Of a stretch of 64,000 bases of DNA, positions 1 through 9,704 are shown piece by piece. The notes under the pieces are model-generated. The model saw only the letters and a list, made by a program, of their open reading frames with translations, ran no database searches and was not told the DNA's origin. Within the stretch, counting starts at the first letter, position 1, and each line of letters starts with the position of its first letter. The translations under genes were made by a program, and so were the position numbers. This DNA is from Bacteroides sp. (lineage in GTDB: Bacteria; Bacteroidota; Bacteroidia; Bacteroidales; Bacteroidaceae). The stretch is from contig NZ_JAQVBV010000003.1 in the NCBI RefSeq assembly GCF_028690125.1, positions 1-64,000 of the forward strand. The letters run 5' to 3'.

Positions 1-10
1 TAACGCTCAT
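1..10 (-). CDS. possible start of a gene leaving the window on the left
   Basis: Only the start codon and two further codons are visible. On the minus strand an ATG at 10-8 is preceded by a purine-rich stretch (GGAAGGAAAG) at ribosome-binding distance. A TATTTTTG promoter element lies about 110 bp upstream at 126-119. The product cannot be named. Confidence 0.3.
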
Positions 11-118
11 CACCACTTTCCTTCCTACAGATGAATTACTTAACCACATAAATGATTGAATTTAAATTATTTAATTGTTAGAACTAAAATTTCGTCATTT
101 TACACCACTTACAGACTG

Positions 119-126
119 CAAAAATA
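119..126 (-). promoter_or_regulatory. candidate -7 element TATTTTTG for the gene leaving the window at left
   Basis: On the minus strand this matches the Bacteroides -7 consensus TAnnTTTG. It lies in the gap between the araC-type gene and the left edge, pointing at the possible ATG at position 10. No good TTTG was located at -33. Confidence 0.35.
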
Positions 127-169
127 GAGCAAATTGATTGATTGACCAAAGAATTAAAGAAATTATTCC

Positions 170-1042
170 TTAATCGGGAAGCTTTCCGATTTTTTCACCA
201 TTGGCTGCTTTCTTTCGTAAAGCGCGCGGAGTGTCTCCAAAAGAGTCTTTGCAGAAATGTGCGAAGTGGGATAGGGAATCGAAGCCATACCGATTGCAGA
301 TTTCAGTAATACGCATTTTGGTATGCTGAAGATCCTCCAGTATACCTTCTCGTTTTTTCTCTAATATCCATTCGTAGACGGGTACACCGTATAAGTTTCT
401 AAAAAGACGCCGGAAGGTAGTAGTTGTATACCCTCCTAAATGTGCAAATTCTTCTACATTCTTTACCTTACTGTAATTTTGCATGATAAAATATTGGAAG
501 CTCTCTGTATACGTACTGATAGGATAAAAGAAAGCTCCTAATTGAGGAATTGGATAATAGTTGGTGATAAGATATGTTAATTCATGGCATTTTAACTCAA
601 TAAATTTACCACAAGGGAGTTGCTCGTCAAGATAAATGGCCAGGTCACCAATCAGGTACTTCAGCTTTGAACTCATAATCAGAGGAGTATAGGTAATTGG
701 AGCTTCTGCCTGATTGATAATTTCTTCATATCGGTCCGGGCAGATCAGAGGGAGTTCGTTAAACCAGTAACAGATATATTTTACCTCCGTGAGTGCCAGC
801 AATTCAACCATCGAACCAATAGCTTGAAGAATAAACTGTCCCTCGTACAATATTGTGCCGGGATATTCTTCGCTATTAATCAATAATTCTCCTGAAATCA
901 TGAAAAGGATGCAATTTTGTGTACACTTGTCTTTAGGGAAATGTTGCCCTCTCGACAGTTTTCTGTATACACATATACCTTCAGTGACTTTGGGGCATTG
1001 TGAACAATCTGTATATGTTTTGCAGAAAGGATCTCTAGCCAT
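170..1042 (-). CDS. AraC-family transcriptional regulator with N-terminal cysteine cluster
   Basis: This 290-residue protein ends in an AraC-type double helix-turn-helix domain (about residues 185-280). The second helix region contains ITEICNRYGFDSLSHFAHF, followed by the family-typical FGDTPRALRK. The N-terminal 180 residues look like a sensor domain. They begin with six cysteines at about positions 7, 13, 16, 24, 40 and 44, which could bind a metal or sense redox state; that is inference. The gene is divergent from the GH30 gene, with a TATCTTTG promoter element about 30 bp upstream, so control of that neighbour is plausible but not shown. The family assignment is secure and the signal unknown. 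Confidence 0.85.
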   Translation of the reverse strand: MARDPFCKTYTDCSQCPKVTEGICVYRKLSRGQHFPKDKCTQNCILFMISGELLINSEEYPGTILYEGQFILQAIGSMVELLALTEVKYICYWFNELPLICPDRYEEIINQAEAPITYTPLIMSSKLKYLIGDLAIYLDEQLPCGKFIELKCHELTYLITNYYPIPQLGAFFYPISTYTESFQYFIMQNYSKVKNVEEFAHLGGYTTTTFRRLFRNLYGVPVYEWILEKKREGILEDLQHTKMRITEICNRYGFDSLSHFAHFCKDSFGDTPRALRKKAANGEKIGKLPD

Positions 1043-1073
1043 GAATTTTATTGTAATGATTCTTATAAGGGAA

Positions 1074-1081
1074 CAAAGATA
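1074..1081 (-). promoter_or_regulatory. -7 promoter element TATCTTTG for the araC-type gene
   Basis: Read on the minus strand this is a perfect TAnnTTTG, placed 32 bp upstream of the ATG at 1042. Confidence 0.55.
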
Positions 1082-1231
1082 AACTTTTTCTATGAAAATA
1101 TACGTAAATATGTAGAATCATTCCTTTTTTATTATTGTTTCGCTTGTTCTATTTGTTATAATTCTACCGGAAATATGTTGGATTTTACCTCTCTTTTTTT
1201 TCATCCTTTCGAAAATTCAGAGCAAAGATTA

Positions 1232-1261
1232 TTTGGCGAGTGAGATATTTCTGTATTTTTG
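1232..1261 (+). promoter_or_regulatory. candidate promoter of the GH30 gene
   Basis: TTTG at 1232-1235 and TATTTTTG at 1254-1261 are separated by 18 bp, close to the Bacteroides -33/-7 arrangement. The GH30 ATG lies 80 bp downstream. Confidence 0.5.
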
Positions 1262-1341
1262 TCTTCTTTAATACTATCCTCTCAATTACCAAGACGTTAG
1301 TATGCCATTCTTGATCAATAATTTATTTAAAGTGTACATTT

Positions 1342-2913
1342 ATGAAAATGAGATTATTAGTTACTTCCATAGGAATATGGCTAATGAATATGACAGCCGG
1401 GGCACAACCTGCCATTTCTTTTCAGATAGAGACCTCGAAACCTTGCCAGGTTATAGAGCACTTCGGTGCTTCCGATGCTTGGAGTATGCAGTTTATAGGT
1501 TTGTGGCCACAGGAAAAACAGGATCAAGTAGCTGACTGGCTCTTTAGTACCGAAAACGATGAGAACGGTCAGCCTAAAGGAATTGGTTTATCACTGTGGA
1601 GGTTTAATATCGGAGCTGGAAGTGCGGAGCAAGGGAGTGCTAGTGGAATTTCCTCTCCTTGGAGGCGTGCTGAATGCTTCTTACAGGCTGATGGAACGTA
1701 TGATTGGACCAAGCAACAGGGACAACGTAATTTCCTGAGATTGGCAAAGGAACGTGGAGTTGATAAGTTTTTGGCGTTCCTGAACTCTCCTCCCGTCTTT
1801 TATACACAGAATGGCTTAGCTACCAATACAGGTCGTGGGGGGACAGCAAATCTCAAGCCTGATTGTTATGAGAACTATGTTCATTTTCTGGCAGATGTAG
1901 TGCAGGGAGTAAAAGAGCATGACGACATTAAATTTAGTTATATTTGTCCTTTTAATGAGCCGGACGGACATTGGAATTGGACAGGATCTAGTCAGGAGGG
2001 TTGCCCGGCAACTAATCGGGAGATTGCTCATACGGTTCGGTTATTAAACAAAGAATTTACCGATAGAAAGATAGATACAGAGGTTTTGGTGAATGAGTCG
2101 TCCGATTATCGTTGTATGTTTAGTACTCATATGACGGATTGGCAACGCGGATATCAGATACAATCGTTTTTCCGCCCCGATAGTGTGAATACTTATTTGG
2201 GGGACGTCTCTAAAACTCCTCGTCTGATGGTGGGGCATAGCTATTGGACAAATACTCCTTTGAGTGCTTTACGTCATATTCGATCTCAGTTACGCGATAC
2301 ATTAGACAAATATAAGGTCGATTTTTGGCAGACAGAGGTTTGCATCATGAGTAATGATGAAGAAATTGGCGGCGGAGGGGGCTTTGATCCTACGATGAAG
2401 ACTGCGCTTTATGTGGCTCGAATGATTCATCATGACATAGTGTATGCCGGTGCTAAAAGTTGGCAATGGTGGCGTGCTATTGGTGAAGACTACAAGGATG
2501 GCTTGATTCGTGAGCTCGCAGACGATGACTTTCGGAATGGTAGGGTGGAGGACTCTAAATTGATGTGGGTGTTAGGTAACTATAGCCGCTTTATCCGTCC
2601 GGGTGCTGTCAGGCTGACTGTTTCTGCGTTTGACAACACCGGGAAATTGGTTCCTGAAGGGGATACCGACCAGAAAGGACTGATGTGTTCTGCTTATAAA
2701 AATACAGATGGAAAGTATGTGGTTGTCCTCATTAACTATGCAAATGAAGACAAGGAGTATTCAATAGGAAAAGGCAACGCGAAAAAAACAGAGTGGCAGG
2801 TTTACAGCACATCAGATCGTGAAGGTGAAAATCTGAAACCTGTAGCCAAGATAAAGGGGAGAAAAGTGAATCGGATTCCCGCACGTTCTGTCATTACACT
2901 TTTATCAGAGTAA
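1342..2913 (+). CDS. secreted GH30-family glycoside hydrolase
   Basis: This is a 523-residue GH30-type (clan GH-A) enzyme with an N-terminal signal peptide ending near AGA-Q (residues 19-21). A (beta/alpha)8 catalytic domain spans about residues 30-430 and a C-terminal beta domain follows. The expected acid/base glutamate is E206 in PFNEPDGHW and the nucleophile is E332 in FWQTEVC. The motif NEPDGHWNW resembles GH30 endo-beta-1,6-galactanases more than glucosylceramidases, so a beta-1,6-galactan target is my best guess, held loosely. The gene stands alone with an AraC regulator divergent to it and no SusC/D pair alongside. It may act on side chains released by other loci. ATG at 1342 is preferred because it directly precedes the signal peptide. 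Confidence 0.85.
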   Translation: MKMRLLVTSIGIWLMNMTAGAQPAISFQIETSKPCQVIEHFGASDAWSMQFIGLWPQEKQDQVADWLFSTENDENGQPKGIGLSLWRFNIGAGSAEQGSASGISSPWRRAECFLQADGTYDWTKQQGQRNFLRLAKERGVDKFLAFLNSPPVFYTQNGLATNTGRGGTANLKPDCYENYVHFLADVVQGVKEHDDIKFSYICPFNEPDGHWNWTGSSQEGCPATNREIAHTVRLLNKEFTDRKIDTEVLVNESSDYRCMFSTHMTDWQRGYQIQSFFRPDSVNTYLGDVSKTPRLMVGHSYWTNTPLSALRHIRSQLRDTLDKYKVDFWQTEVCIMSNDEEIGGGGGFDPTMKTALYVARMIHHDIVYAGAKSWQWWRAIGEDYKDGLIRELADDDFRNGRVEDSKLMWVLGNYSRFIRPGAVRLTVSAFDNTGKLVPEGDTDQKGLMCSAYKNTDGKYVVVLINYANEDKEYSIGKGNAKKTEWQVYSTSDREGENLKPVAKIKGRKVNRIPARSVITLLSE

Positions 2914-3440: not shown

Positions 3441-4379
3441 ATGGGGAATTTAATTTCATTTATGCAAAAAGTAGCCGATGGGTTACAGACGAGTGGTAAT
3501 TATGGGACCGCTCATGTGTATAGGAGTAGTTTGAATGCGCTTATCTCATTTCATGGAAATACTCATCTGCCATTTCGGAAAGTTACTCCTGAATTTATAA
3601 AGAGTTTTGAGATACATCTACGTGGAAGAGGATGTAGTTGGAATACTGTTTCTACTTATATGAGGACTTTGAGAGCGGTATACAATCGAGCAATAGAATG
3701 TCGTAGGGCGATTTATATACCACACTTATTCAAATATGTCTATACCGGAACACGTGCTGACCGGAAGCGGGCCCTGGACAACGGCGAGATGTCACAGCTA
3801 TTAAATGATTCATCACCAAGTACCGTTATCCCTTATTGCTTGAAAAAGACGAAAGCATTGTTTGTGTTGATGTTTTTGCTGCGCGGATTGCTTTTTGTGG
3901 ATTTGGCTTATCTGAAAAAAAAGGATTTGGATGAAAACGTACTTACCTACCGTCGGCGTAAAACCGGGCGACAGTTAAGCGTAACATTGACACCCGAAGC
4001 AATGGTGCTGGTAAGGAAGTATATGAATACAGACCTAAACTCTCCTTATCTCTTTTCATTGATAACGGCCGGGGAGGGTACTAAAGAAGCTTATCGTGAA
4101 TATCAGCTTGCACTTCGTAACTTCAATTATCAACTTACCTCACTTAAAGAAATCTTGGGATTTACGTCCGATTTAAGTTCTTATACAGCCCGCCATACAT
4201 GGGCTACAATGGCTTATTACAGTGAGATTCATCCCGGCATTATCTCCGAAGCAATGGGACATTCGTCTATCATGGTGACGGAAACTTACCTAAAGCCTTT
4301 TAGGAATAAGAAAATTGATGAATCAAACATTCAGGTGATTGACTTTGCAAAACAATATTTTAAAAGTGTAATAGCCTGA
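3441..4379 (+). CDS. tyrosine-type site-specific recombinase (candidate DNA invertase)
   Basis: This 312-residue protein has an N-terminal SAM-like core-binding domain (about 1-105) and a C-terminal phage-integrase catalytic domain (about 110-300). Visible catalytic residues are R148 in LLRGLLFVDL, K174 in RRKTG, R251 in SSYTARHTWAT (with Y248 where many relatives have His), H274 in AMGHSS and nucleophile Y283 in TETYLKPF. This is the typical Bacteroides integrase pattern, some members of which invert promoters. Its stop codon lies only 10 bp before an 18-bp inverted repeat whose partner sits 264 bp further on, in front of the surface-protein gene. That makes inversion of this segment its most likely job. 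Action in trans on other sites remains possible. Confidence 0.9.
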   Translation: MGNLISFMQKVADGLQTSGNYGTAHVYRSSLNALISFHGNTHLPFRKVTPEFIKSFEIHLRGRGCSWNTVSTYMRTLRAVYNRAIECRRAIYIPHLFKYVYTGTRADRKRALDNGEMSQLLNDSSPSTVIPYCLKKTKALFVLMFLLRGLLFVDLAYLKKKDLDENVLTYRRRKTGRQLSVTLTPEAMVLVRKYMNTDLNSPYLFSLITAGEGTKEAYREYQLALRNFNYQLTSLKEILGFTSDLSSYTARHTWATMAYYSEIHPGIISEAMGHSSIMVTETYLKPFRNKKIDESNIQVIDFAKQYFKSVIA

Positions 4380-4424
4380 AATTTAATTTGTTACTTAGTA
4401 GGTAACGACAATACTTTCTTGTGA

Positions 4425-4450
4425 CATCCCCAAAGGCGTTTTGGGGGATG
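4425..4450. terminator. hairpin inside the invertible segment, after the recombinase gene
   Basis: CATCCCCAAA pairs with a TTTGGGGATG-type arm (one extra G) across a short GGCG loop. No T-run follows on the + strand. In the present orientation it would sit behind the recombinase gene. Inversion would move it in front of the surface-protein gene. Confidence 0.5.
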
Positions 4451-4623
4451 ATTGCTGACAAAAAGCATAAAAAGATTATTTCCCTCATTTAGGCAGAAAA
4501 CTGAGGGGCAGAGAATTCTTTGTCCAAGTTTTAAGGTTAATAGACTGTTAATGCTAAGAATTCGTAGTTTCGTGTATTTTGCTATTCTTTTTTAATAGTT
4601 TATGAGAAAAAATATGTTATTTG

Positions 4624-4655
4624 TTTGCTTGTTTTCAGAAATATGTCCATATTTG
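4624..4655 (+). promoter_or_regulatory. rightward promoter inside the invertible segment (ON orientation)
   Basis: TTTG at 4624-4627 and CATATTTG at 4648-4655 are 20 bp apart, one mismatch from the Bacteroides TTTG/TAnnTTTG consensus. Transcription would start near 4662, cross the right inverted repeat and reach the ATG at 4752. Confidence 0.6.
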
Positions 4656-4751
4656 CAGCGTGTTTTATTCCCGTTACCTACTAAGTAACGGGAAAGTATT
4701 GTTGAAACTTAGTGTTTAATAATATATTATTAATGTAATTTTTAAGTAGTT

Positions 4752-7547
4752 ATGAGAAAAAAATTTGTGAAAGTGATGTTCTTCGGAGCATTGGCTCTTT
4801 CCACTGTCACCTATGTAGGCTGTAAAGACTACGATGATGACATTGACAATCTGCAAACTCAGATTGATGCCAATAAAGCCGATATCGCCAAATTACAATC
4901 GTTTGTGGATGCAGGCAAATGGGTGAAAACAGTAGAGCCTATTACCGGTGGATTTAAAATTACCTTTAACGATGAAAAGTCTTATGAAATCGTAAATGGT
5001 GCAAAAGGTGACAAAGGTGAAATAGGGGCAGAGGGTTCTGCGGGTTCTAAGGTTACTATTGATAAAGAAACCAGTGAATGGTTGATTGACAACGAACCGA
5101 CAGGGTGGTATGCAAAAGTTCAGGACGGTCATTCTCCTTATATTGCTGATGGCAAAAATGGCGATAAAGGTTATTGGTATTTCTGGGACAGTGCAGCTGG
5201 TAAATTTGTAAAAGGCGATAAGGCACAAGGTAATGACGGTGAATCTATCACGGGACAAAACGGCAAATCTCCTTATATAGATAAAACTACCGGTCAGTGG
5301 GTTTATTATAACGAAGCAGGAGAAAAAGTATTTGGTCCTGTGGCTGCCGGAACTAATGGAAATGATGCTGTATCACCTTTTATCGGCGATGATGGATATT
5401 GGTACTATTGGGATGTTAAACAAACAGGTGAGGACGGTACTCCTGGTAAACTTGTAAAAGGTGCTTATGCACAGACAAGCGTGTACGTAGTGAAAGCTAA
5501 AGACAGGCCTGCTTATGACCTTCACATCAATGTACAGAACGCAGATGGTACGTTTACTGCAAAAACTTTGGCTCTTCCTTCTGCTGAAGCCATTGCTACA
5601 ATGGACATTGTTTCAATTGCAGGCGGTGAGATTTCTCAAGGTATGACTCAAGCCATTGAATTGTACTATGGTGTAATTGATAAAGAGATAGAGTTTAACG
5701 GAAAGAAATTTGGTGCTAAAGACAAAAAGACTACATTGGTAGGCAGCAACTTTAATACGCTTTTTGCTCTGGTTAATCCCACAAGTGTGGATTTCTCTGA
5801 ATATCCTGTTACATTGATCAACTCACACGGAGAAGAAGTGTTTAATGTCTCTCAGGAAAAGCACATGAGTACTACTCCCTTAACTACTACTCGTGCAACT
5901 GATAAGTGGAACGTTGGTGTATATGCTTTGAAAGTTTCTTTAAACCCTGCCAACGTTACTGGAGACTTGAACGGCAAGACTTATGCTTATGCTTTGAAGA
6001 CCAAAGATGCATTCAGCAATGAAATTATCTCTAAATATGATGCCAAGATCATTGCAAAAAATGAAGCGAAATCTTTAGTAGCAAAGGAGGTAGATGTTGA
6101 TTATACAAAAGCTGCGGAACTTGATCAATTGTTTGCCGGAGAATTGACTAAGGTTGTTGATCATTATTACACTATTGATGATAATGAATTGAAGGCTATC
6201 GGTGCTACTTTTGATAAGGCTACTAATACAATTTCTGCGCCTGCTAAGCAAGGTTCAGTTAATGTAAAAGTAAACTATTTAAAAACTGATGGTCAGAAAG
6301 TAGAAGGAGCAAGTGCTGTGATTTGTAAAGTGACATTTACATATAGTATCGGTACTGATATTAATGTTGCAGAAGCTGCCGTTTGGACGCTTGCTAAGAA
6401 TGCAAACACTACTGATATGACTCAGAATAAAGCTTCTATCACTATTACTCCTGAAAGCAATGCTGACTTATTCAATTTGTTGAATAAAGACTTTGGTAGC
6501 GGTAGACAGGCAACTTTGAAGCTGGATGCTGCTGATGTTAAGTTTGCACAAAGCATTAATAATATTACTTATGCTTCTAATTCTATCAAGCTGGCTGCAA
6601 ATCAACCTGAAAAGCTTATGAAAGATGGTAAGGTAACAGGCTATAAGATTACCTTTAACTTTGATCCGACAACTATTTGTGCTACCGTTCATAATGCTAT
6701 GTTGCAAGTTATGAATCCTGCATCGACTCCTGCGTTGGGTGACAATGTACTGAAGAAAGTTAATGTGAAAGTAGAAGTTAAGAATCCGGGTATTTTCGAA
6801 TTCAAACCTCTGGATGCATACTTTACAAACTCTAACACAGCAGTTGCTTACGGTACTCCGGCTAATAATACTGTAGGACAGGATCTTTATGCTCTCTTCG
6901 AAGTAATTAGTGATGCTGACAAAAATCATATCACTTTCTCTGAAGAACGTCCTAATTTCGGAACATCAGCTAATCCTCAATATGGTGCTGCTTGGCTGTC
7001 TGGAATATCATCTGAATTGAAAGTACCATTGTACAAAGCGGAGAAGAATGACGGAGTATATTCTGAACGTAAATTGATAATTTCTTATCAACCATTTGGA
7101 AACAATCGTCTGGCTTCAATCTCTAAAGAGTTTAATCTGACAGTAAGATCTGCTATCAAGCAAGGTTCACATCCTGATATTGAAGCGAAAAATGGTAAAG
7201 TGCTTTCTATAAAAGAGACAGAAAAATCATTCAAGATTGCACCGAATTTATTTGCTGTGAAAGATGTTTATGCTAAAAATGTAGTAATCGCGGCTACAAG
7301 TAGAGATGCCAGAGTGACAAATGTTACTATTGAGCTGAGCTCTGAAATTGCTAAATACGCTGAAGTTGCAGGTCAAACTAGTAGTCCTGTAGCCTTTGGT
7401 AATGAATTGACAGTACAGTTGAAAGCTAATACAGTATCTATCGCACGTGAAATTACAGGCTATGCTTTAGTGAAGATCACAGATACATGGGGTGCTGTAA
7501 CTGAAGTTAAATGCCCGATCACAATGAAGGCAGATGGCGCTAATTGA
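4752..7547 (+). CDS. large phase-variable surface lipoprotein, S-layer-like, with collagen-like repeats
   Basis: The 931-residue protein has a lipoprotein signal with lipobox cysteine C24 (TYVGC) followed by KDYDDD, an acidic stretch typical of Bacteroides surface-exposed lipoproteins. A short coiled-coil-like segment (residues about 30-55) precedes a G-x-y collagen-like run (GAKGDKGEIGAEGSAG). About three repeats of a SPYI...GYWYFWD...KGD type follow to about residue 245. The remaining 680 residues look like beta-rich immunoglobulin-like domains. The layout resembles the phase-variable surface-layer protein described in B. thetaiotaomicron (BT1927); this is recall, not alignment. No enzyme motifs are seen. 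Expression should depend on the orientation of the upstream segment. Two hairpin terminators follow. Confidence 0.8.
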   Translation: MRKKFVKVMFFGALALSTVTYVGCKDYDDDIDNLQTQIDANKADIAKLQSFVDAGKWVKTVEPITGGFKITFNDEKSYEIVNGAKGDKGEIGAEGSAGSKVTIDKETSEWLIDNEPTGWYAKVQDGHSPYIADGKNGDKGYWYFWDSAAGKFVKGDKAQGNDGESITGQNGKSPYIDKTTGQWVYYNEAGEKVFGPVAAGTNGNDAVSPFIGDDGYWYYWDVKQTGEDGTPGKLVKGAYAQTSVYVVKAKDRPAYDLHINVQNADGTFTAKTLALPSAEAIATMDIVSIAGGEISQGMTQAIELYYGVIDKEIEFNGKKFGAKDKKTTLVGSNFNTLFALVNPTSVDFSEYPVTLINSHGEEVFNVSQEKHMSTTPLTTTRATDKWNVGVYALKVSLNPANVTGDLNGKTYAYALKTKDAFSNEIISKYDAKIIAKNEAKSLVAKEVDVDYTKAAELDQLFAGELTKVVDHYYTIDDNELKAIGATFDKATNTISAPAKQGSVNVKVNYLKTDGQKVEGASAVICKVTFTYSIGTDINVAEAAVWTLAKNANTTDMTQNKASITITPESNADLFNLLNKDFGSGRQATLKLDAADVKFAQSINNITYASNSIKLAANQPEKLMKDGKVTGYKITFNFDPTTICATVHNAMLQVMNPASTPALGDNVLKKVNVKVEVKNPGIFEFKPLDAYFTNSNTAVAYGTPANNTVGQDLYALFEVISDADKNHITFSEERPNFGTSANPQYGAAWLSGISSELKVPLYKAEKNDGVYSERKLIISYQPFGNNRLASISKEFNLTVRSAIKQGSHPDIEAKNGKVLSIKETEKSFKIAPNLFAVKDVYAKNVVIAATSRDARVTNVTIELSSEIAKYAEVAGQTSSPVAFGNELTVQLKANTVSIAREITGYALVKITDTWGAVTEVKCPITMKADGAN

Positions 7548-8129: not shown

Positions 8130-9704
8130 TTATTTCAACTTTTCCTTAAATTCTTTACTATTCAATATTTCCAGTGCCTTTTGTACACTTTCATTGGTCG
8201 TATTCATTATTTGAAAGTACTCATTCATATCCCAGATGTCACGTGCAAGGAGTGCTTTTAATTGGATTTTGATTAATGGAAGCGATTTTTCATACTGTTG
8301 TTCATCGAACTTCACTCCTTCTTTTTCACCCATCTCACGCAAAGCGGATAACATATCATCACTGATAACAAACTTCTTGTTGAACTCGTCAAAGTTCTTG
8401 TATTTATTTGCTAATTCCTTCCGTTGATTTTCGATGTACTTCATTACATACTTGATCACTACTCCCTTGGCAACCAGATTTCGGTGATAGTCCGTAAAAA
8501 GAGTAGTATCAATTGGAACAAAATAATCCGGCATAATACCACCACCGCCATAAACAGTACGTTTGAGTTTCTTGGTCTGTACTTTCAGTGAGTCGGGGAA
8601 ATGAATACTGTCGGCATTCATCAATTCTCCGTGGTTGAAACGATCTATCAGATCTTTATTATAATCAGTTTCGCTGTCATAAGGTTTTTGAATGCAACGA
8701 CCGGACGGAGTATAATAGCGTGCGATAGTCAGACGAATCATGGAACCATCGGGAAGTTCAACAGGCCGTTGTACCAATCCTTTGCCGAAAGAGCGGCGAC
8801 CTACGATTATACCTCTATCCCAGTCTTGTATAGCGCCACTGACAATTTCACTGGCAGAAGCCGTATATTCATCTACCAAAACGACGAGACGACCATTACG
8901 GAACTCTCCGTTACCTTTTGCAAAGAATTCACTGCGCTGTGCAGCCCGTCCTTCGGTGTATACGATCAGTTCTTTCTGCCCCAGAAACTCGTTGGCAAGG
9001 TCGATAGCGGCATTCAGATAGCCTCCACCATTTCCTTGCAGGTCAAGGACCAGATCTTCCATTCCTTGTTTCTGAAGATCTTTCATTGCTTTTTTGAATT
9101 CTTCAGCCGTAGTTGCCCCGAAACGGTTGATACGGATATACCCTATTTTCGGTTGAATCATATAGGATGCATCAAGACTGAGAATAGGAATCTTGTCTCT
9201 CTTTACAGTGAATACTAACGGATCTTTTACACCACGGCGGACGATTGTGAGATCTACTTTTGAGTCTTTCGGACCACGAAGTCTTTTCATAATATCCTCC
9301 GTACTCATCTTTACTCCGGCAATGGCACTGTCATTGACTGCAATGATCCGGTCACCGGCAAGGATACCGACCTTTTCGGAAGGACCGTTGCTGACAGGTT
9401 GTACCACTAGCAATGTATCTTCAATCATTTGAAATTGTACTCCGATACCTTCAAAATTTCCTTGAAGGGGTTCGTTCATCTTCTTTACCTCTTCTGCATC
9501 TGAATAGGTAGAGTGGGGGTCGAGTTGTGCCAACATTTTGATGATGGCCTCTTCTACCATCTTGTCCTCGTCTACTTTGTCCACATAAAGATTGGTAATG
9601 GCGTACTCTGCCATTTGTAGTTTGCGCATGGCAGGTGAACCGAAGTCCTGAGCTTGTGTGGTGATTGCCCACAAACAAGCTAATAATATATATACCTTCT
9701 TCAT
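8130..9704 (-). CDS. S41-family C-terminal processing protease with PDZ domain
   Basis: The 524-residue protein carries a cleavable signal peptide (ending near TTQAQ), a PDZ domain at about residues 80-165 and an S41 protease core. The catalytic serine is probably S283 in TASASEI and the lysine K308 in SFGKGLVQ. This is the 25-residue spacing seen in the Tsp/CtpA Ser-Lys dyad. A C-terminal helical extension reaches 524. It should act in the periplasm, trimming or degrading envelope proteins. It is the last gene of an operon with coaD (41-bp gap), parE and a GNAT-like gene. Family and catalytic residues are clear; the substrate is unknown. Confidence 0.93.
   Translation of the reverse strand: MKKVYILLACLWAITTQAQDFGSPAMRKLQMAEYAITNLYVDKVDEDKMVEEAIIKMLAQLDPHSTYSDAEEVKKMNEPLQGNFEGIGVQFQMIEDTLLVVQPVSNGPSEKVGILAGDRIIAVNDSAIAGVKMSTEDIMKRLRGPKDSKVDLTIVRRGVKDPLVFTVKRDKIPILSLDASYMIQPKIGYIRINRFGATTAEEFKKAMKDLQKQGMEDLVLDLQGNGGGYLNAAIDLANEFLGQKELIVYTEGRAAQRSEFFAKGNGEFRNGRLVVLVDEYTASASEIVSGAIQDWDRGIIVGRRSFGKGLVQRPVELPDGSMIRLTIARYYTPSGRCIQKPYDSETDYNKDLIDRFNHGELMNADSIHFPDSLKVQTKKLKRTVYGGGGIMPDYFVPIDTTLFTDYHRNLVAKGVVIKYVMKYIENQRKELANKYKNFDEFNKKFVISDDMLSALREMGEKEGVKFDEQQYEKSLPLIKIQLKALLARDIWDMNEYFQIMNTTNESVQKALEILNSKEFKEKLK

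Follow-up and report, generated by a model that had tools for sequence, protein, structure and literature searches.

The window (64,000 nucleotides of DNA from a gut Bacteroides species near B. bouchesdurhonensis) very probably carries a Bacteroides phase-variation cassette of the GTTAC-N7-GTAAC type (probability of about 0.93), in which the neighbouring recombinase, or a close paralogue of it, flips the promoter of a gene encoding a DUF4988 lipoprotein. At the sequence level, assignment to this class of invertible-promoter switch is supported by the repeats, the recombinase, the internal promoter and the occurrence of both orientations across loci. The class is already well known; judging from sequence comparison, the window holds a further case, with a cargo unrelated to the BT1927 S-layer protein, and it offers a clean example of the ON state. 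The features of the locus are as follows.

3441-4379, + strand: tyrosine site-specific recombinase of 312 aa (PF13102 and PF00589), candidate local invertase
4390-4407, + strand: left inverted repeat GTTACTTAGTAGGTAACG, starting 10 bp past the end of the recombinase ORF
4408-4671, no strand: invertible segment of 264 bp, reversed in a paralogue and in a syntenic relative
4481-4508 (approximate), no strand: conserved hairpin CCCTCA...TGAGGG (CCCC...GGGG type), in the half of the segment without the promoter
4624-4655, + strand: Bacteroides promoter TTTG-N20-CATATTTG (-33/-7), pointing at the lipoprotein gene
4668-4694, + strand: extended palindrome TTCCCGTTAC-N7-GTAACGGGAA at the right repeat, completed only in the ON orientation
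4672-4689, + strand: right inverted repeat CGTTACCTACTAAGTAAC, exact reverse complement of the left repeat
4690-4751, + strand: 5' leader of the lipoprotein gene, 62 bp, from the right repeat to the start codon
4752-7547, + strand: DUF4988 lipoprotein of 931 aa, with signal peptide, Cys24 and PF16378

The two 18-bp repeats are perfect and of the GTTAC-N7-GTAAC form, and they enclose 264 bp, so that this part of the original prediction is exact at base level. When extended, their similarity reaches 24 nt at 92 %, and the right repeat ends 62 bp ahead of the lipoprotein gene. The GTTACN7GTAAC motif occurs twice in the 64 kb, against 0.04 occurrences expected, and two were seen in 0 of 100 shuffles. 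Moreover, 4390-4407/4672-4689 is the window's sole perfect inverted pair of at least 18 bp at a spacing of 150-500 bp; none was found in 20 order-1 Markov windows. The recombinase gene had been noted to stop 10 bp before the left repeat, and the ORF at 3441-4379 bears this out. The ORF is full length and combines an N-terminal SAM-like domain (PF13102, 2.5e-20) and a catalytic phage-integrase domain (PF00589, 4.4e-12) with the motifs RHTW (251-254), GHSS and TETYLKP, the last containing Tyr283. Homologues of this recombinase stand ahead of similar repeats in about 50 loci, and the window's own genome holds at least four GTTACN7GTAAC pairs, every one beside a recombinase of its own; the other recombinases in this genome, among which the actual catalyst could lie, include an 87 % identical paralogue and two at capsule loci. 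Within the segment, the hairpin at 4481-4508 shows some compensatory changes over 21 segments (alignment A4, columns 77-104). The segment hairpins were considered as terminators and rejected as such, sequence inspection having revealed no T-tract directly after them; a search of Rfam at the switch matched no family.

The promoter is made of TTTG (4624-4627), a spacer of 20 nt and the -7 box CATATTTG (4648-4655), with one mismatch to the Bacteroides -33/-7 consensus. The off-consensus base of the -7 box is itself conserved in nearly all close homologues, and nowhere are related segments better conserved than in the promoter block TTTG...CATATTTGCA(G/C)CG. When both strands of 4380-4760 were scanned for TTTG-N19-21-TAnnTTTG-like promoters (5/6 or better), this was the single match (chance expectation of about 0.07 per strand in 264 bp), in agreement with the near-consensus promoter that had been predicted within the segment and aimed at the lipoprotein gene. 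The same scan found no Bacteroides-type promoter between the segment and the lipoprotein gene; a sigma70-like match lies outside the segment (4702-4730), and such matches are no commoner than in shuffles. With its sole Bacteroides-type promoter facing the lipoprotein gene, the locus was assembled in the ON state, and the ON state claimed beforehand holds on the direction of that promoter.

According to the proposed mechanism, the tyrosine recombinase encoded next to the segment, or else a close paralogue working in trans, would recombine the 18-bp repeats and thereby invert the 264 bp. In the ON orientation, the single promoter of the segment would transcribe the DUF4988 lipoprotein gene through a 5' leader starting with a hairpin, as the extended palindrome at the right repeat is predicted to form a strong hairpin at the mRNA 5' end. 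In the OFF orientation, which is the usual one in relatives, the promoter would face the recombinase gene and read out over its 3' end, leaving the lipoprotein silent. Presumably the window's recombinase is the catalyst in the window strain, and expression tracks orientation. The leader (4690-4751) shows about 90-95 % identity across DUF4988-type cassettes from many species, a conservation that exceeds that of most of the protein.

Segment orientation varies among homologous and syntenic loci, the window strain being represented by one assembly. A second cassette of the same genome (C10, L035), whose recombinase shares 87 % protein identity with that of the window, has a segment 94.7 % identical and inverted relative to its recombinase. 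The segment is also inverted at the syntenic locus of B. bouchesdurhonensis (L056), where the genes matching window positions 1-2913, the recombinase and the lipoprotein all align at 76-80 %. This reversal, in both the own-genome paralogue and the syntenic locus, speaks for the phase-variable, invertible promoter of the original prediction. All fetched loci together gave 50 distinct segments behind related recombinases. In 47 of these 50, the promoter is about 28-34 bp away from a repeat, and 47 were scorable, i.e. had a promoter 20-45 bp from a repeat. OFF segments, with the promoter facing the recombinase, numbered 43/47, and ON segments, with the promoter facing away, 4/47; as assemblies show the majority orientation, these counts are majorities and not rates. 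The four ON cases are the window, one MAG (L057/L130, a single locus), a capsule locus of the window's genome (L004) and a locus whose recombinase is split (L147).

Two UpxY capsule operons of the window's genome carry GTTACN7GTAAC switches of their own, one OFF and one ON (G000:C96:33574-33850 and G000:C146:201662-201950). Like the window, these switches (C96, C146) have repeat pairs (GTTACTTCTTAGGTAAC), a promoter 30 bp from one repeat and an adjacent recombinase; they differ in driving UpxY-type capsule operons and in their recombinase, which is about 39 % identical.

The switch might also bias itself, an idea that we regard as doubtful: in the OFF state the promoter would read through the left repeat and, within a few tens of bases, enter the recombinase gene from its 3' end, and the resulting antisense RNA would lower recombinase levels and stabilise OFF. 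If true, this would explain why 43/47 cassettes are OFF, and switching ON would lift the brake.

Two other accounts concern the activity of the switch itself. The segment could have been invertible in ancestors and now be fixed ON in the window strain, switching having been lost or frozen by selection. A single orientation is seen for the window locus (one assembly), and frozen loci seem to exist elsewhere: a B. bouchesdurhonensis cassette whose recombinase is broken and whose right repeat is unrecognisable is ON, and so is another cassette with a split recombinase. The window, however, displays no sign of decay. It has a full-length recombinase ORF that retains the motifs and two perfect repeats, and a close paralogue exists, all of which makes fixation very improbable. 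Alternatively, the repeats could be acted upon by a distant master invertase, in the manner of B. fragilis Tsr19/BF2766 or Mpi, instead of the adjacent recombinase. B. fragilis invertases can work on both local and distant sites (PMC4747536), and the window's genome offers at least four GTTACN7GTAAC pairs. This account nevertheless seems unlikely, given that a repeat pair and a recombinase co-occur in more than 40 loci and that the window's recombinase and segment have close counterparts located together. The B. fragilis Tsr19/BF2766 system (PMC4747536) resembles the window in its tyrosine recombinase with an invertible promoter of a surface structure immediately downstream, and its shift to OFF in culture likens it to the window type; it differs in controlling exopolysaccharide and a distant locus.

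Inversion by the neighbouring recombinase or a close paralogue remains our preferred reading. Among known systems close to it is the phase-variable S-layer locus BT1927 of B. thetaiotaomicron (PMC12548429; PMC12118408); the original prediction had drawn its parallel with an S-layer of that species. Promoter inversion at BT1927 was demonstrated experimentally. In B. thetaiotaomicron, about one cell per 1,000 has BT1927 ON; mutating one repeat locks the promoter ON or OFF, and locked-ON cells resist several phages (PMC12548429). The consensus repeat CCGTTACCTABVRAGTAAC, published for BT1927 and seven other upregulated loci (PMC12118408), agrees with the right repeat of the window at 18/19 positions. 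None of the genomes searched was identified as B. thetaiotaomicron itself, and the B. faecis orthologue served as comparator. A BT1927 qPCR primer (PMC12548429) matches B. faecis MAJ27 with 0 mismatches and its partner primer matches with 2 mismatches about 140 bp off, so the BT1927 orthologue was taken to be the 940-aa gene of L042; in genome G021, a single BT1826 primer matched with 2 mismatches, too weakly for use. The BT1927 locus resembles the window type in having an upstream tyrosine recombinase (that of the B. faecis orthologue is 69 % identical to the window's), GTTACN7GTAAC repeats, a single internal promoter that is the same in form and placement, and a lipoprotein gene downstream, and in being mostly OFF.

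The window gene could, on this showing, encode an S-layer protein of the BT1927 family, as the switch module is the same and a window-type cassette, encoding an 872-aa DUF4988 protein that shares 35-58 % identity with the window protein in two aligned parts, lies directly upstream of the BT1927 orthologue in B. faecis. We nonetheless consider this quite improbable: blastp of the window protein against the B. faecis orthologue gave no match, and hhalign of the two families returned a probability of 0.4 %. The orthologue is predicted to be almost all helical (mean pLDDT of only 56), as opposed to the beta-rich fold predicted for the window protein, so that a helical cargo family stands against a DUF4988/collagen-like/Ig-like one, and the orthologue's locus has downstream partner genes that the window gene is without. 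With the same switch module and no detectable protein homology, it is the switch that is shared and not the cargo. The original prediction was therefore correct in substance; of its S-layer parallel, the common switch module stood, and the kinship of the proteins did not, which leaves that parallel weak. By analogy with BT1927, a role in phage resistance might extend to the window protein. A crystalline layer made of a different fold is conceivable in view of the modelled structure, the S-layer protein SbsB (4aq1) being among its weak fold matches.

The lipoprotein matches PF16378 (DUF4988) with 32.9 bits (gathering score 30), and its lipobox Cys24 is invariant in 11 homologues. Its layout comprises the signal peptide with Cys24, a coiled coil, a collagen-like Gly-X-Y stretch and predicted tandem Ig-like beta domains. 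Searches of NCBIfam and PDB found no relative by sequence. The AlphaFold model (11-sequence alignment, mean pLDDT 69) is poor over the N-terminal 250 residues and consists mostly of beta strands in the remainder, and Foldseek retrieved cadherin-like tandem domains at low TM-score, with SbsB in the top 50. Kinship with cadherins or protocadherins was set aside (TM-scores of 0.1-0.2), these matches being taken solely as tandem Ig-like beta domains. The predicted structure is read as no more than a rod of Ig-like domains. No partner gene was found behind the lipoprotein gene, the next gene (8130-9704) being on the opposite strand. On the cell surface the protein may form a rod-like adhesin or a coat altering phage or immune recognition, and a phase-variable surface lipoprotein of this kind would probably serve phage or immune evasion or adhesion. 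One module (recombinase, repeats and promoter) is reused ahead of unrelated surface proteins, one family being helical (the S-layer type) and the other beta-rich and collagen-like, and switch and cargo should be treated apart when genomes serve to predict phage resistance or immune evasion.

The DUF4988-type cassettes closest in kind to the window (beside BT1927 in B. faecis, in G021, in B. acidifaciens and in Bacteroides sp. GM023) share with it the recombinase, the repeats, the promoter, a leader of 62-64 bp, the signal peptide and the first ~40-140 residues. They differ in the surface part, which has diverged to 29-37 % identity beyond the closest orthologues, and in an extra gene of ~370-390 aa downstream in some copies. 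Recombinase-switch-lipoprotein cassettes also occur in tandem pairs (L041 and L042 in B. faecis, L047 in Bacteroides sp. GM023), in which the N-terminus hardly varies and the C-terminal parts have diverged strongly. Certain cassettes of the same genome have an identical repeat spacer, which might permit exchange between them.

A recurrent sequence seems to break several recombinase genes of this kind. The 35-bp sequence end ATTCTGTTTTTTATTGCATTTCTAAATATTACTTA was found 11 times in 8 Bacteroides genomes (right ends L139, L140 and L142-L149; left ends L039, L080 and L078), and in 10/11 occurrences it is fused exactly ahead of the codons for Y-x-[AGS]-R-H-T-[WF], in different tyrosine recombinase genes that include several phase-switch recombinases. 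In two species (L117, L118), two tandem integrase genes adjoin it. The sequence appears to be the end of an integrative element whose target is the active-site motif in tyrosine recombinase genes and whose insertion would thereby break inversion switches; a literature search on an element of this type found no report. The reading that a single 46-kb element splits the B. bouchesdurhonensis recombinase gene was dropped because the interval contains housekeeping genes.

Finally, in a further arrangement the repeats flank the related recombinase gene itself, about 1.2-1.5 kb apart (L068-L072, L075-L077, L079, L082, L083, L089, L090 and L094). It occurs in the Bacteroidales B. cellulosilyticus, B. 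oleiciplenus, B. stercorirosoris and others, and the recombinase gene would there invert together with the segment.
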